A stretch of DNA of 12,180 bases. Source: Gemmatimonadota bacterium (GTDB taxonomy: Bacteria > GCA-2686955). Below are positions 1,201 to 12,180 of this stretch, piece after piece. The notes beneath the pieces are model-generated. The model did no database searches. It was not told where the DNA came from and saw only the letters and a list, made by a program, of their open reading frames with translations. The position numbers and the translations under genes are program-made. Location: assembly GCA_002686955.1 (NCBI GenBank), contig NYZA01000265.1, forward strand, positions 1-12,180, written 5' to 3'. Positions within the stretch are counted from its first letter, which is position 1. The number at the start of each line of letters is the position of its first letter.

Positions 1201-1933
1201 TCAGCCCTGCACCCCCAATGTTCCGAGGTCCTCCCCCAACCACCCCCGAAGCAGCTCCATCGCTTCAATCGACGGCGAATCGACCTTCTCCACGCGGTAT
1301 TGATCCGCCGGCCACGGTGCCAGAACAAGCTCCACCTCGCGCAACATTCCATGTCGCGCCAAAGTGATGCTGATCTTCTGTCCCGATCGACGCTCCATGA
1401 ACCGCTCCCGCGGTCCCTCCTCCGTCCAGGCTCGATGCCCGTTGATGGCGATGATCTCGTCACCCACATAGACCCCTGCCCGCGCCGCCGGCGTATCGAC
1501 CCGTACTCGGCTCACGATGGCTCGGCCCGGCTTGTCTCGCACATCGATCCCGATCTGGCCTCCCGGCGGAAGCCCATCGCCCTGCGCCCGCTTCCACCCC
1601 GGAACGACCCGTAGACCGAAGGGCGTCAAGTGGCGCTCGAAATCGATCTGATCGGGAGCTCCGTCGATCTTGATTCGCCACACATTCTTGGAGATCTTGT
1701 AGACCGGAATCGCCCCCTCCGGTCCACGAGCCTCGACCTCGTGCACGTGGCGAGAGTACTCGCGTACGAGAGTAGGAACCCGGAGTCCAGATCGGCATGA
1801 TCAGATCGAGGACGGGACCTGCCGGCGCAGGAACCATCATTTCGACCGAGATCAAGTTGCGATGCACATCGGGAGAAGACACACGGTATCGCGTAGCATG
1901 GGCGACCGGGGCGTCGCTCGAATCTCGTTTCAC
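1201..1933 (-). pseudogene. M61 (glycyl aminopeptidase-like) peptidase, internally deleted and frameshifted
   Basis: M61 peptidases are about 600-residue zinc metallopeptidases: an N-terminal beta domain, a thermolysin-like catalytic domain with HEXXH, then a PDZ domain. Here a GTG start at 1931-1933 has a strong GGAGGAG Shine-Dalgarno sequence at 1940-1946. The N-terminal signature MPIWTPGSYS is followed, after one extra base near 1770, by VREYSRHVHEVEA in another frame. That block normally continues PGSY directly. The frame then reads YKISKNVWRIKI (still N-domain) and passes straight to IDFERHLTPFGLRV and a PDZ domain (GIDVRDK, AARAGVYVGDEIIAINGHRAW), ending near the usual M61 C-terminus. 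The whole catalytic domain, including HEXXH, is absent. Corrected length is about 243 residues against about 600. It starts 25 bases after typA ends, so it probably was once co-transcribed with it. It cannot be an active peptidase. Confidence 0.8.
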
Positions 1934-1958
1934 CAGAATCTCCTCCGGGGTTGTGCGT

Positions 1959-3764
<1,806 letters not shown>

Positions 3765-6170: not shown

Positions 6171-7307
6171 TTAGCTCGTCCGCTCTTCCGGCTCTTCGGC
6201 GCTCGCCTCTTCGGCCGGGCTCTCCTCGGGAGCGGCCTCTTCGCCGGCGCTCGCCTCGGCCGGCGCTTCCTCGGTCTCGGTGGGCTCGTCGGTCGAGACC
6301 TGCTCGGCGGCAGGCGAGTCCAGATCGACCACCGGCTCCGACTCCTGGGCCACCTCGATCGGAGCCTCGACCGCAGCCTCCACCATCTCGGCCGAAGGCG
6401 CCGTCTCCTCGACCACCGGCGCCGCGGCGGTCTCTTCGGCGCCGGCTTCCGCTTGCGCCCCCTCCTCGGCGGTGGCCGATTCGGTCAGTGCGGCTTCCAG
6501 CTCACCGTCCTCGCTCTTCGCATCGAAATCGAAATCGCCGGCGTCGTGCCGCCCCGCGATCACCGCATCGGCGATCGCCTTGGTCACGACACTAATCGAG
6601 CGGACGGCGTCGTCGTTCGCGGGAATCGGAAAGTCGATCTCGGTCGGATCGCAGTTCGTATCGACGATCGCGATGACCGGGATCCCCAGCTTGCGGCTCT
6701 CCTTGACGGCAATCGTTTCCTTTCGGGTGTCGACAACGAAAACCACCGTGGGCAGATCGACCATCGCTTTCACGCCCCGCAGAACCCTCGAGAGCTTCTC
6801 ATGCTCGCGCTTGAGCATCAGCCGCTCCTTCTTCGTGAGGCTGTGGAAGCTCCGATCCTCTTCCATATGCTCGAGCCGCTTCATCTTGTCGACGGAGACT
6901 TTGATCGTCGCGTAGTTGGTCAAGAAGCCGCCGAGCCAGCGCTCGGTGACGAAGAACATCCCGCAACGTTCCGCCTCGGCTACGACCGTCTCCTGCGCCT
7001 GGCGCTTCGTCCCCACGAAGAGCACCTTGCCACCCTTGCGAGCATGCTCTCGCACGAAGGCGGTCGCTTGCCGCAATCGCACCTGCGTCTTGCGCAGATC
7101 GATGATGTGGATCCCGTTCCGCTTTCCGAAGATGTAGCGGCGCATCTTCGGATTCCAGCGCTTGGTCTGGTGGCCGAAATGGGCGCCGGCTTCCAGCAGA
7201 TCTCTTGCGGTGACCTCGGTGGCGGTCTCAGTGGCGGCCTCAGTGGCGGTCTCAGTGACGGTCTCAGTGACGGTCTCGGTGACGGTCTCAGTGGCGGTCT
7301 CGGACAT
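6171..7307 (-). CDS. rpsB: 30S ribosomal protein S2, with repetitive N-terminus and long acidic C-terminal tail
   Basis: S2 binds the 30S head-body junction and helps place S1 and the mRNA. The family core runs from about residue 34 (RDLLEAGAHFGHQTKRWNPK) through YIFGKRNGIHIIDL, FVGTKRQAQ, ERWLGGFLTNYATI and DPTEIDFPIPANDDAVRSI to about 252. Start ATG 7305-7307 is chosen because CCAGGAG lies 6 bases upstream; an in-frame ATG at 7377-7379 has none. The 378-residue product is far longer than usual (about 240-270). Residues 3-31 are a Glu-Thr-Ala/Val-Thr repeat, and residues 253-378 form an Ala/Glu/Pro-rich acidic tail with almost no basic residues. Acidic S2 tails occur in several phyla; the N-terminal repeat is rarer. 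It is second upstream of pyrH, as in many bacteria. Confidence 0.94.
   Translation of the reverse strand: MSETATETVTETVTETVTETATEAATETATEVTARDLLEAGAHFGHQTKRWNPKMRRYIFGKRNGIHIIDLRKTQVRLRQATAFVREHARKGGKVLFVGTKRQAQETVVAEAERCGMFFVTERWLGGFLTNYATIKVSVDKMKRLEHMEEDRSFHSLTKKERLMLKREHEKLSRVLRGVKAMVDLPTVVFVVDTRKETIAVKESRKLGIPVIAIVDTNCDPTEIDFPIPANDDAVRSISVVTKAIADAVIAGRHDAGDFDFDAKSEDGELEAALTESATAEEGAQAEAGAEETAAAPVVEETAPSAEMVEAAVEAPIEVAQESEPVVDLDSPAAEQVSTDEPTETEEAPAEASAGEEAAPEESPAEEASAEEPEERTS
7215..7301 (-). repeat. 12-bp tandem repeat inside the 5' end of rpsB
   Basis: Seven full copies and a partial copy of a 12-base unit of the type GAGACCGTCACT run through codons 3-33 of rpsB and encode E-T-(A/V)-T. 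Units differ by a few T/C or T/C-G changes (ETAT, ETVT three times, ETAT, EAAT, ETAT). Because the unit is a multiple of three bases, slippage changes the repeat number without breaking the frame. Confidence 0.9.
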
Positions 7308-8311: not shown

Positions 8312-8412
8312 CTCAGACTCCGGTGGATCGCCGCGCCGCCGATCGGCCGACGCGCGGATGATAGCTTCGCGCCAAGCGAACAACATGAGTCCGCCTATGG
8401 CATAGAAGGAGG

Positions 8413-8442
8413 AGGCTAGCGTCGATGCTCTTCGCCTGTCAA
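8413..8442 (-). promoter_or_regulatory. Possible sigma70-type promoter of the rplM operon
   Basis: On the minus strand TTGACA (8442-8437), a perfect -35 box, is followed after 18 bases by TAGCCT (8418-8413), a weak -10 box with the conserved T, A and final T. A transcript would begin near 8405 and carry an untranslated leader of about 95 bases before the rplM ATG. The position fits the first gene of the operon. The -10 match is only 3 of 6. Confidence 0.4.
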
Positions 8443-8613
8443 CGGTTGGCTCGCCGATTCGTCGACGATTCCGGAGGACCGCGCACTTCGGGGCGGGTCA
8501 CCGTCGAAACGAGTGCCAGGCACGCCCCGTCGCCCCGCGCGCCTCGAACCGGCGGACCTGCAAGGACCGCGGCCAGACCGAGCCTGGCGCGCACCCGCTT
8601 TGCTCAACGCGGC

Positions 8614-8790
8614 TCACTCGGACCTTCCGTACTGCGCGAGCCATTCCCCATTCGACGGCCCACCGTACGCACCCATATCGGAACGTGGTCCATCGGGCAG
8701 TCGCGCCAGTCCAGTCGTTGACGGCCGCGGGGGAGCTCGCCGTGGCCACGGAGCGAAATCGGTTGAAGGAGACGGAAATTGCATCGCCGG
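8614..8790 (-). pseudogene. Decayed C-terminus of a right-handed parallel beta-helix protein
   Basis: On the minus strand one frame reads DGPRSDMGAYGGPSNGEW just before a stop at 8614-8616. An x-DG-x-RxDMGAYGG-P block ends many secreted parallel beta-helix proteins, just after a SPAIDAGDP-type segment. The neighbouring frame, immediately upstream, reads ISVSFNRF and then SSPAAVNDWTGAT, which looks like that preceding segment. The two pieces are therefore probably one sequence split by a frameshift near 8705-8715. No intact start, signal peptide or helix repeats were found upstream. It is a remnant, not a functional gene. Confidence 0.45.
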
Positions 8791-9747
8791 CTTGCCGAAT
8801 CCGCCAGTCACGCGCACCTTCCCCCTCCAGATTCTCCAAGTAGGTCTCGACCGCGGCCGCCACGGAGTGCGCGGCATCCTCGCCTGCAAATCCGAGAGCC
8901 GATCCAGCCAGCGATCGAAGCAGGGGACTCGGCGGTCCGGTGCCAGACGACGTCCCCGGATCCAAGCTGCGAACTCCCGCGGCCGCGGATTGCTCATCCC
9001 CGATCCGTCCCGCGTCGCCTCCTGAGCTGTGAGCAGAGGCCCGGTCCGGGTCGCTCGCTGACCGCTCGGGGGAAGACAGTTGACCCGCGGGATCGCGGTT
9101 TCCCGCAACGCCGCGCGAATCTCGGCGCGGTTGCGCCCACGTCGCGATCCCCCTGCCACGTCGGCCGGTCCCTTGTGCCGGCCAGGTGTCGGCGAACTCC
9201 GCTGTCTCCGGGAGCTCCAGCCCTTGCCGTCATCTGTTGATCTCATGACCGGCCCGCGAGCGCAAGATAGTGGACCACCTGAGGGCGTGTGCAATCCGCC
9301 GCGCGCTCGCCACCCGCAGCCCCCTGATTCCCGGTCTCGACGGCCTCGAATACCCGATATCCACGATTGCCGCACTTCCGGATATCCACGGATCTTCGGG
9401 GACATACCTGTCGTCGCTTCGGCGGACTCCTCCCGCCGAAGACCGCCGCGGATTCTGCTAAGATCGAGCCACGCCGGTCGTTTCCGCATCGGCCACCACT
9501 GCCCTGAGGATTCTGAGTGCTGAACCACTGGGCGACCGGAGCGTGCGGGGTGGCCGGGGTTGTGGGGGGCTTGGTAATGAGTTGTTCGAGGACTAGATTT
9601 CCGCCGGAACGGAGCAGGATGCGGCCATCCGTTTGGTCGCTGAGTCTCAATCGGCTGCGCTACGAAACTCGTTACTACTGGACCCCCACTTCTGGCGTTC
9701 AACTACGCTCGTCACGACTCGTGATGTTGGCTGCCGTGGGAAACAAG
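8791..9747. other. Stretch of about 950 bases without an intact gene
   Basis: Long open frames exist on both strands, but their products are Arg/Pro/Gly/Ser-rich with no family signature, as expected of GC-rich non-coding DNA. Parts on the minus strand may be further debris of the beta-helix gene. From about 9570 rightwards the sequence becomes visibly less GC-rich, leading into the DUF4041 gene. The boundary of an inserted segment may therefore lie between about 9560 and 9720. No integrase, insertion-sequence end or complete tRNA was seen. Confidence 0.4.
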
Positions 9748-11382
9748 ATGAATCACCAGCCATACGAGGTCCTCTTGGCGGTCATGGGAGTCCTCTGGTT
9801 CGTAACGTTGGTCCGGCAGTGGCGCCTGAGATCGGCCCATTCGCGGCTTGTTGAAGCTCATAAACAACTAAGGAAGAGGCATGCAACACTCGAGAACGAC
9901 CAAGCAAATATGCATGCAGCGCACACCACAGCCAAGGCGGAGCTCGCAGATATTTCAGAATCGAACCGCCGCGTTGCGGCCGCGCAAAGCCGCCTGATTG
10001 CAGCTCAAACTCAGATCGAGGCTGAACTCCGCGCGCTGCAAGATGAATATGCGCTTCTGCAGGGGGAGCATGCTCGCGTTACGTCCGAACGAGATGAACT
10101 GCGAACCGCACACGATCAACTTGAGCCCAAGTACAAAGCAAGCGAGGCCAAGCAAACCGCTCTCTTGGAACGTTTCAGACCGATCGAAGACTTAGGCAAG
10201 GAAGCCAAGCGACTTGAAGATTCAGTGACGAAGCTGAAGGAATCATATCGACAGAAGAAGGCCAAGTACGACAAATTGGTACACACGGTAGCGGCGTTCG
10301 ATGACGGAATCGAGCTCGCTGAGTTGGGATTCTACGAACCCCATTTCGACTTTGATACGTCGGAGAGATACAAGCATGCCATACGCGAGATCAAAGAAGA
10401 GCAAAAGGAAATGGTCCGCAACAGAGAGGCAATAGTCTGCAACATCCAGTGGACAGTTGACAATAGCCTAGCAAAGGGGCAGACGATGATCAATAGAGGC
10501 GTACGTTTGACCGCGCGGGCGTTCAACAACGAGTGCGATGCGGCTGTTGCGAAGGTGCGGTGGAACAACGTACGCCGGATGGAACTACGAATCGAGAAGG
10601 CCTTCGACGCCGTCAACAAGGCCAACCGTTCTCAACATATCGTCGTCACAAGCGAGTATCTTGCTCTCAAACTACAGGAACTTCGTCTTGCTCACGAATA
10701 CAAGGAGAAGAAGCACCAAGAGCGGGAAGAAAAGGCAGAACTTCGAAGGCAGGAACGAGAAGAGGCGAAGCTTCGCAAAGACGCTGCCCAAGCTGCTGAG
10801 GAGGAGGCCAAGTACGCCAGACTATTGGCTAAAGCTCGACAGGAAGCTAGGTCAGCTAGCCCGGAGCGCCTCCAGGCTCTGAGGGAGGACATCGCGACAC
10901 TAACGAAGCGGCTTGAGGATGCACATTCGAGGGGGGAGAGAGCGTTGTCAATGGCCCAGCAAACGCGATCGGGCTATGTGTATGTGATTTCCAATGTTGG
11001 CTCGTTTGGGGACGCAGTCTACAAGATCGGGATGACTCGGCGATTGGATCCAATGGATCGAGTCCGGGAACTGAGCGCCGCCAGCGTGCCGTTTGTTTAC
11101 GACACACATGCCATGGTATACTCACGAGATGCTCCGGCCATGGAAGCTGCGCTGCACCATGCCTTTGATGGTCGGCGCGTGAACAAGGTCAATTCCCGCA
11201 AGGAGTTCTTCAGGGTCAGGCTTGAGGAAGTCAAGCGCGAAATTGAACGCCTATTTCCAAACGCCGATTTCGTTGAGACCATCGAGGCACGTGACTTCAG
11301 GGAGACGAAATCCATCGAAGAGAGCCGGAACGACGCTAGGTCCAAGACAGATGCCCGGAAAAAGTTCCCTGACGCATTGTAG
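9748..11382 (+). CDS. SNIPE-like membrane-anchored DUF4041/GIY-YIG (T5orf172, MUG113) nuclease
   Basis: The 544-residue protein has four parts. (1) An N-terminal hydrophobic segment (about 7-22, EVLLAVMGVLWFVTLV) flanked by basic residues, a likely inner-membrane anchor. (2) A long coiled coil (about 30-165) of charged heptads. (3) A DUF4041-type region (about 165-330) with FYEPHFDFDTSERY at 195, followed by a Lys/Glu/Arg-rich helix to about 400. (4) A GIY-YIG domain from 409: GYVYVISN, YKIGMTRR (425), RVREL, then Glu466 in AMEAALHHAF, the expected metal-binding glutamate, and RVNKVNSRKEFF. Known SNIPE is a surface-associated nuclease of this architecture that cuts phage DNA as it enters. ATG 9748 is chosen because the membrane segment follows at once and GGGA lies 6 bases upstream; GTG 9721 and ATG 9724 are alternatives, and the frame is open from 9517. 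Base composition is lower in GC than the neighbours, suggesting transfer. It stands alone, with no partner gene. Confidence 0.85.
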   Translation: MNHQPYEVLLAVMGVLWFVTLVRQWRLRSAHSRLVEAHKQLRKRHATLENDQANMHAAHTTAKAELADISESNRRVAAAQSRLIAAQTQIEAELRALQDEYALLQGEHARVTSERDELRTAHDQLEPKYKASEAKQTALLERFRPIEDLGKEAKRLEDSVTKLKESYRQKKAKYDKLVHTVAAFDDGIELAELGFYEPHFDFDTSERYKHAIREIKEEQKEMVRNREAIVCNIQWTVDNSLAKGQTMINRGVRLTARAFNNECDAAVAKVRWNNVRRMELRIEKAFDAVNKANRSQHIVVTSEYLALKLQELRLAHEYKEKKHQEREEKAELRRQEREEAKLRKDAAQAAEEEAKYARLLAKARQEARSASPERLQALREDIATLTKRLEDAHSRGERALSMAQQTRSGYVYVISNVGSFGDAVYKIGMTRRLDPMDRVRELSAASVPFVYDTHAMVYSRDAPAMEAALHHAFDGRRVNKVNSRKEFFRVRLEEVKREIERLFPNADFVETIEARDFRETKSIEESRNDARSKTDARKKFPDAL

Positions 11383-11430
11383 ATAGATCCATGTCGCCGA
11401 ACGACCATGTCTATACCTATGAGACCTCGA

Positions 11431-11463
11431 ATCGGGTAGCCGGGGGTTTCTCTCCCCCAGCCC
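11431..11463 (-). ncRNA. Group II intron domain VI and 3' splice site
   Basis: GGGCUGGGGG pairs with CCCCCGG and CCC around an AGAGAAA loop. An unpaired A at 11437 sits in CUACCCGAU, 7 nucleotides from the 3' end, which is the usual distance for the branch-point adenosine. The intron would end in the standard AY dinucleotide (AU) at 11432-11431. Confidence 0.7.
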
Positions 11464-11467
11464 CCAC

Positions 11468-11499
11468 ACCACCCCGCATGCGGGTCCGCACGGGGCGGT
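11468..11499 (-). ncRNA. Group II intron domain V (catalytic hairpin)
   Basis: Starting one base after the reverse transcriptase stop, ACCGCCCCG (11499-11491) pairs with CGGGGUGGU (11476-11468). A CGC catalytic triad has a G-U wobble at its centre. Above it are a 2-nt bulge (UG), a 4-bp upper helix (UGCG/CGCA) and a GACC tetraloop. Two helices separated by a 2-nt bulge with a capping tetraloop are the defining domain V shape that binds the two catalytic metal ions. All elements needed for activity are present. Confidence 0.8.
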
Positions 11500-12180
11500 T
11501 CACCGTAGTTGAGCAGATTGGATCCAGATGTCTCGAATGGAGACCAGGCCTCGTCGAGCGAGATAAGCATCGGAAAGAGCTACGTGAATCGCGTAATTGC
11601 GAGACATGTGCCACGGTCCTTTCGAGCTGAGGCCCGTCAGGATCGCCCATTTCCTGCTTACGCCCCGCGCAAGCAGTCGTTGGATCCTGGTGTATCGCTT
11701 GCGCCACATATTCCAGTAGCACATGCGCACTCGTCGTCGGATCCATCTCTCCAGTTCGGGGATGGGCCTGTAGTAACCCGAGAGCCCGAAGTATGCCATC
11801 CATCCGTTGAGGTAGAGAGCAAGCTCCTTCATTCGACGCTTCATGGACACGCCCCAGTTTCTCCCGGTCAACTCCTTGATCCGGGCCTGGAAGCGATGAA
11901 GTGTCTTATCCGACCAACTAATCTTGGTTCCCCGGAAGGTGAATCCCAGGAATGTTGCCTTGTTGGTCGGCACGACGTGGCTCTTCTGCGTGTTGACCTC
12001 CAAGCGGAGCACGCTTTCGAGCCATCTGGTGACACTTGCCATCACGCGTTCACCGCTGCGCTTACTCCCGACCACGATGATCACATCGTCGGCGTAGCGC
12101 GCGAAGCGGTGTCCTCTCCTCTCAAGCTCCTTGTCGAAGTCGTCGAGGATGATGTTGGCGAGCAAGGGCGACAGAGGGCC
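11500..12180 (-). CDS. ltrA: Group II intron reverse transcriptase/maturase, partial (5' end outside window)
   Basis: The visible 227 residues begin inside the reverse transcriptase domain with GPLSPLLANIILDDFDKELE (RT block 4), then RYADD, the catalytic YxDD box. Next comes the RT-to-thumb region KSHVVPTNKATFLGFTFRG, and the maturase (X) domain with LNGWMAYFGLSGYY and KGPWHMSRNYAIHVALSDAY. It ends at TGA 11500-11502 without the DNA-binding/HNH endonuclease domain of LtrA-type proteins. It therefore belongs to the endonuclease-lacking group, which usually homes through replication forks or single-stranded target DNA. These proteins splice their own intron and copy it into DNA. The frame is open to the window edge with no frameshift, so the protein may be intact. 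Confidence 0.92.
   Translation of the reverse strand, partial: GPLSPLLANIILDDFDKELERRGHRFARYADDVIIVVGSKRSGERVMASVTRWLESVLRLEVNTQKSHVVPTNKATFLGFTFRGTKISWSDKTLHRFQARIKELTGRNWGVSMKRRMKELALYLNGWMAYFGLSGYYRPIPELERWIRRRVRMCYWNMWRKRYTRIQRLLARGVSRKWAILTGLSSKGPWHMSRNYAIHVALSDAYLARRGLVSIRDIWIQSAQLR

Follow-up and report, generated by a model that had tools for sequence, protein, structure and literature searches.

A probable anti-phage nuclease of the SNIPE (PD-lambda-1) family, likely acquired horizontally, from a bacterial phylum with few sampled genomes

Introduction

The anti-phage nuclease first described as PD-lambda-1 has been renamed SNIPE. In E. coli it is held at the membrane, where it is bound to ManYZ before infection, and it engages the phage tape measure protein and cuts phage DNA during injection (PMC13190303). 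Association with ManYZ is not a requirement across the family, and E. coli SNIPE itself defends against many siphoviruses without it (PMC13190303). Mutation of residue E414 abolishes defence, and the substitution W257R enhances defence against Bas14, arginine being common at that position in homologues (PMC13190303). A transmembrane segment is predicted in 66% of SNIPE homologues, and the length of the N-terminal region is highly variable among 474 of them (PMC13190303). A homologue from Streptococcus thermophilus also defends against phage, and of a pair of S. thermophilus homologues sharing 98.5% identity, one gave no protection and the other over three logs (PMC12322248). Because this nearly identical pair differed fully, membership of the family is no guarantee of function. 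We found no solved SNIPE structure.

Here we describe a SNIPE gene on a contig of exactly 12,180 bases, analysed over its whole length and referred to below as the window. The initial annotation, made from the sequence, had read the gene as a distant SNIPE homologue standing alone among housekeeping genes, with a coiled coil that looked long and might reach towards a different phage entry pore. Our analysis indicates that the product is very probably an anti-phage nuclease of the SNIPE family that was acquired horizontally and acts at the membrane on entering phage DNA.

Results

Gene structure and domain organisation

The gene and the regions of its product are as follows.

9748..11382, + strand: SNIPE / PD-lambda-1 gene, 544 aa (PADLOC PD-Lambda-1 match; intact ORF; identity to E. 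coli SNIPE)
9757..9813, + strand: membrane segment at the N-terminus (residues 4-22), with a predicted N-outside/C-inside orientation (hydropathy; arginines after it; position in E. coli SNIPE)
9814..10326, + strand: coiled-coil N-terminal region, residues 23-193 (model helices; 3.5-residue hydrophobic periodicity)
10327..10671, + strand: central domain, made up of the conserved GFYEPHFDF block at residues 194-202 and of DUF4041 (Pfam, 255-308) (Pfam; basic positions kept)
10672..10968, + strand: helical connector, residues 309-407 (model helices 302-369 and 372-407; R313 aligned to E. coli W257)
10969..11263, + strand: GIY-YIG nuclease domain, residues about 408-505, key residues Y412, Y425, R438, E466, N479 and E486 (T5orf172, MUG113, fold match, invariant residues)

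The reading frame is intact and ends in TAG. It is open already from 9517, which makes the start of the gene uncertain; the likeliest start is the ATG at 9748, which is preceded by GTGGGAAACAAG and directly followed by the membrane segment. A promoter scan of 9300-11600 found none of the types that it covers.

Pfam DUF4041 (PF13250) matched residues 255-308 (E=8.5e-20, 70.8 bits against a cut-off of 27), while T5orf172 matched residues 409-501 (E=3.7e-17) and MUG113 the C-terminal domain (E=2.5e-15), both far above cut-off, so that the profile searches proposed in the initial annotation came out positive for all three families. The PADLOC PD-Lambda-1 model PDLC03976 matched across residues 82-538 (E=5.5e-164), and a second PD-Lambda-1 model matched the protein at E=1.5e-160. 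Similarity to SNIPE runs through the protein and is not confined to the two domains, as seen in the span of the PDLC03976 match and in a shared clade with E. coli SNIPE. Judged by sequence, the product is a clear member of the SNIPE (PD-lambda-1) family, and the proposed architecture of a predicted membrane segment, a coil, DUF4041 and a C-terminal GIY-YIG domain is supported. The motifs on which that proposal was built are all present: FYEPHFDFDTSERY from residue 195, GYVYVISN at residue 409, YKIGMTRR at 425 and KEFF at 485, in addition to E466. The first of these had been called a DUF4041-type block; DUF4041 is indeed present, but FYEPHF lies upstream of the Pfam match, although it is conserved across the SNIPE family.

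The predicted membrane segment is short and only moderately hydrophobic, with a mean Kyte-Doolittle value of 1.62 over 19 residues that is nevertheless the highest among the nine window proteins tested. Three arginines follow it within six residues (R23, R26 and R28), and the net charge before it is -1. By the positive-inside rule, an anchor with the N-terminus outside and the C-terminus inside is predicted, as in E. coli SNIPE. The region behind the anchor has a heptad (3.5-residue) periodicity that was reached by 0 of 1000 shuffled sequences. Its length had been put at about 140 residues, whereas the distance from the membrane segment to FYEPHF is about 170. Measured to F259, the distance is 237 residues, compared with 124-235 (median 182.5) in 30 membrane-anchored homologues. 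We considered the coil as a length outlier and rejected this, as it is the longest by two residues with no gap in the distribution, and two homologues from other genomes reach 234 and 235. The idea that the coil acts as a ruler or extends the reach of the protein gains no specific support, its length being continuous with that of homologues and N-terminal variation having been published already.

An AlphaFold2 model of the full protein, built with 40 sequences, had a mean pLDDT of 85. It begins with two long helices (6-142 and 144-192), followed by a compact central part and a further long connector, also helical, and ends in a C-terminal domain of alpha/beta type. A PDB fold search with the whole model was uninformative, its best matches being generic coiled coils. 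As the long helices swamped this search, we modelled the nuclease domain by itself (pLDDT 79.7). The eight best PDB matches to this domain were then all GIY-YIG proteins (Slx1 and HIGLE) with Z-scores of 7.0-7.4, the next match being at 4.1. Foldseek E-values for the same domain were weak (0.04 at best), with the seven best matches belonging to the same GIY-YIG family. GIY-YIG nucleases are thus the only clear PDB matches of the predicted domain. The Slx1/HIGLE nucleases (PDB 6sei, 7cq3 and 7wme) have this domain fold in common with the window protein at 14-19% identity; they are otherwise unrelated and lack DUF4041 and a membrane anchor.

Comparison with E. coli SNIPE and other homologues

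As E. coli reference we used the PhiR26_1 gene product annotated as PD-lambda-1 (XSB42081.1, 500 aa). It carries all the published SNIPE residues (E414, N250, L253, W257, E264, K305, I308 and E223), and because the residues named in PMC13190303 all match, we regard it as SNIPE itself. Its identity to the window protein is 49.5% over 376 residues (160-535 of the window protein) and 44% overall. A maximum-likelihood tree, built from 58 proteins, places both within the same 20-row clade (support 99/95). With about 50% core identity and a place inside this clade, the protein is not the distant homologue that it had been taken for.

Within the clade, the window protein is sister to proteins of rhizobial plasmids and viral contigs (100/97), namely DUF4041 proteins such as Sinorhizobium fredii WP_104840497.1 and those of four viral contigs (L032, L035, L037 and L050). 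These have a membrane segment and about 50-55% core identity, but their N-terminal region is shorter, with 142-190 residues between the membrane segment and F259 where the window protein has 237. The highest identity, 56% over 381 columns, was to a homologue in a Sulfurimonas MAG (L005), the ORF of which, as read, has 386 aa and no membrane segment; it lies on a short contig of uncertain binning. At this locus (1505-3418 of a 4.4-kb contig), an upstream ORF of 138 aa starts with a hydrophobic segment.

Conservation was assessed in a non-redundant set of 57 homologues, which come from viral contigs, plasmids and genomes. Viral contigs yielded 88 homologues when a six-sequence alignment was used as query, and none when they were searched with a single-protein pattern. 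E466 of the window protein aligns with the essential E414 of E. coli SNIPE and is invariant (57/57), in agreement with the catalytic role that had been assigned to it; Y412, R438, N479 and E486 are likewise invariant. Y425 is replaced by V, F or I in 13 of the 57. Of the two mutants that had been suggested for plaque assays, E466 is therefore a good choice and Y425 a weaker one than the invariant Y412 or R438. In the DUF4041 region, eight positions are basic (K/R) in 80% or more of the homologues, and the window protein has K or R at each of them. At the position of R313, arginine is the commonest residue (12/57).

Genomic neighbourhood and origin

The following features flank the gene.

8390..9747, no strand: stretch of about 1.3 kb lacking recognisable genes, from rplM to the SNIPE gene (ORFs unmatched in Pfam; codon-phase signal absent)
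11431..11500, - strand: domains V and VI at the 3' end of a group II intron (Rfam RF00029 at 45.7 bits, with a gathering score of 40)
11500..12180, - strand: reverse transcriptase/maturase of the group II intron, truncated where the contig ends (GIIM 3.2e-15, RVT_1 1.6e-11, TIGR04416 7.1e-38)

The intron starts 49 bases past the SNIPE stop codon, and the contig ends 0.8 kb downstream of the gene, inside the reverse transcriptase. A broken reverse-transcriptase copy on another contig of the same genome (C181) is 88% identical over 182 bases, and such a related copy would explain the contig break at 12180. An intact, more distant group II intron copy is found on contig C71. The description of the gene as standing alone amid housekeeping genes holds for its left side, whereas the right side is cut off inside the intron; it also passes over the foreign composition of the gene and a synteny break located there.

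Apart from the stretch at 8390-9747, the region is dense in genes. The possibility of a hidden gene at 8390-9700 was considered and dismissed, as six ORFs had no Pfam match and a codon-phase signal was absent. The segment 9541-9568 resembles a group II intron 3' end; as a second, inverted intron remnant it was discarded (p=0.07 against first-order Markov sequences, no Rfam match). No tRNA or known RNA was detected at the island edge, and the window yielded neither an integrase or phage structural gene nor a flanking repeat. Elsewhere in the window, ribosomal protein S2 (6171-7307, - strand) has a long, acidic, Ala/Glu-rich C-terminal tail and a repetitive Thr/Glu-rich N-terminal stretch, with an imperfect 27-base repeat at 7215 and 7275.

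The SNIPE gene has a GC3 of 0.61, whereas values of 0.76-0.83 were obtained for the genes on this contig that encode ribosomal proteins and for pyrH, frr and the typA-like gene. The phylum is represented by only two of 97,973 species genomes and is a poorly sampled lineage. In the only other genome, the genes maf, dtd, a laccase-like gene and relA, named from a reading of their translations, lie upstream of rplM, and DUF4041 is absent. In the genome of the window these four genes are on another contig, so the rplM-maf junction is broken, with the SNIPE gene on the rplM side. Near the maf end of this junction lies a gene for a 554-aa protein (L112, 11238-12902, - strand, G000:C225) whose N-terminal part gives a weak HNH signal (PADLOC ZorE2 E=3.7e-4; Pfam HNH_3 below cut-off); this protein may be a further nuclease belonging to the variable region. 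DUF4041 was found in only 7 of 386 genomes of a broad sample. Acquisition of the SNIPE gene with a mobile element fits these data, although with two genomes a rearrangement and an insertion look alike.

Host docking partners

The ManY and ManZ families (PF03609 and PF03613) were not found in the genome of the window, which is 84.5% complete; the same searches were positive in the control genomes of E. coli, B. subtilis and L. lactis. With these families not found, docking on ManYZ as in E. coli is unlikely, the absence being suggestive at this level of completeness. The presence of Omp85 proteins makes an outer membrane very likely in this host, in which case phage DNA has to pass an inner membrane, as in E. 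coli.

Discussion

The sequence features for anchoring, DNA binding and cutting are all present in the window protein, and they suggest an active nuclease. Its architecture and catalytic residues make it likely that the protein does the same job as E. coli SNIPE, as originally proposed. By analogy with E. coli SNIPE, it would reside at the membrane, bind the tape measure protein and DNA, and cleave during injection. The coiled coil would hold DUF4041 and the nuclease beneath the membrane. On infection, DUF4041 would contact the phage injection machinery, through the tape measure protein, and the incoming DNA, which the GIY-YIG domain with E466 would then cleave during entry. Recruitment might proceed via the tape measure protein alone or involve another host membrane protein; most likely it is the tape measure protein that recruits the nuclease, whether or not a host partner takes part.

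The different phage entry pore suggested earlier gains some support from the host, in which the ManY/ManZ families were not found. That the protein docks on another inner-membrane entry partner via its long coil, with coil length setting the depth of the nuclease, seems improbable to us. A question of a different kind is whom the gene serves. It may be cargo of a phage or mobile element, which it would serve in superinfection exclusion by the SNIPE mechanism. Homologues occur in phage genomes and viral contigs, E. coli SNIPE itself residing in a lambdoid phage, and the foreign composition, the adjoining group II intron and the synteny break point the same way. In the window, however, none of the integrase, phage structural or flanking-repeat sequences of such an element was found, its downstream side being cut by the contig end, and we consider this reading possible but on the unlikely side.

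GIY-YIG domains are common in homing endonucleases, and with a group II intron 49 bases away the gene could be thought to encode a homing endonuclease tied to that intron, not a defence protein. This is extremely improbable, as the PD-Lambda-1 match spans most of the protein, the membrane segment and DUF4041 are foreign to that class, the gene ends at 11382, outside the intron and on the opposite strand to it, and relatives in the annotated loci examined are not beside introns. The mobile intron and the gene-free DNA around the gene could also suggest the inactive relic of a former SNIPE gene, but 544 codons run without a stop or frameshift and the invariant residues of the family are all kept, which renders decay quite implausible. 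We therefore prefer a functional SNIPE family nuclease of horizontal origin.

The mechanism of SNIPE, its wide distribution and the variability of its N-termini are already known, and in these respects our data confirm published points. New are the unusual host, by which a clear SNIPE is added to a little-sampled bacterial phylum, and the missing ManYZ. The sole known docking partner not having been found in this host, the locus provides a usable case for asking whether SNIPE needs a host partner or the tape measure protein alone. Compared with E. coli SNIPE, the window protein has in common the domain order, the position of the predicted N-terminal membrane segment, DUF4041, the catalytic glutamate of the GIY-YIG domain and KEFF. 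It differs in having a host genome without detected ManY/ManZ, a coiled coil that is 56 residues longer (anchored at F259), and R313 where the E. coli protein has W257.
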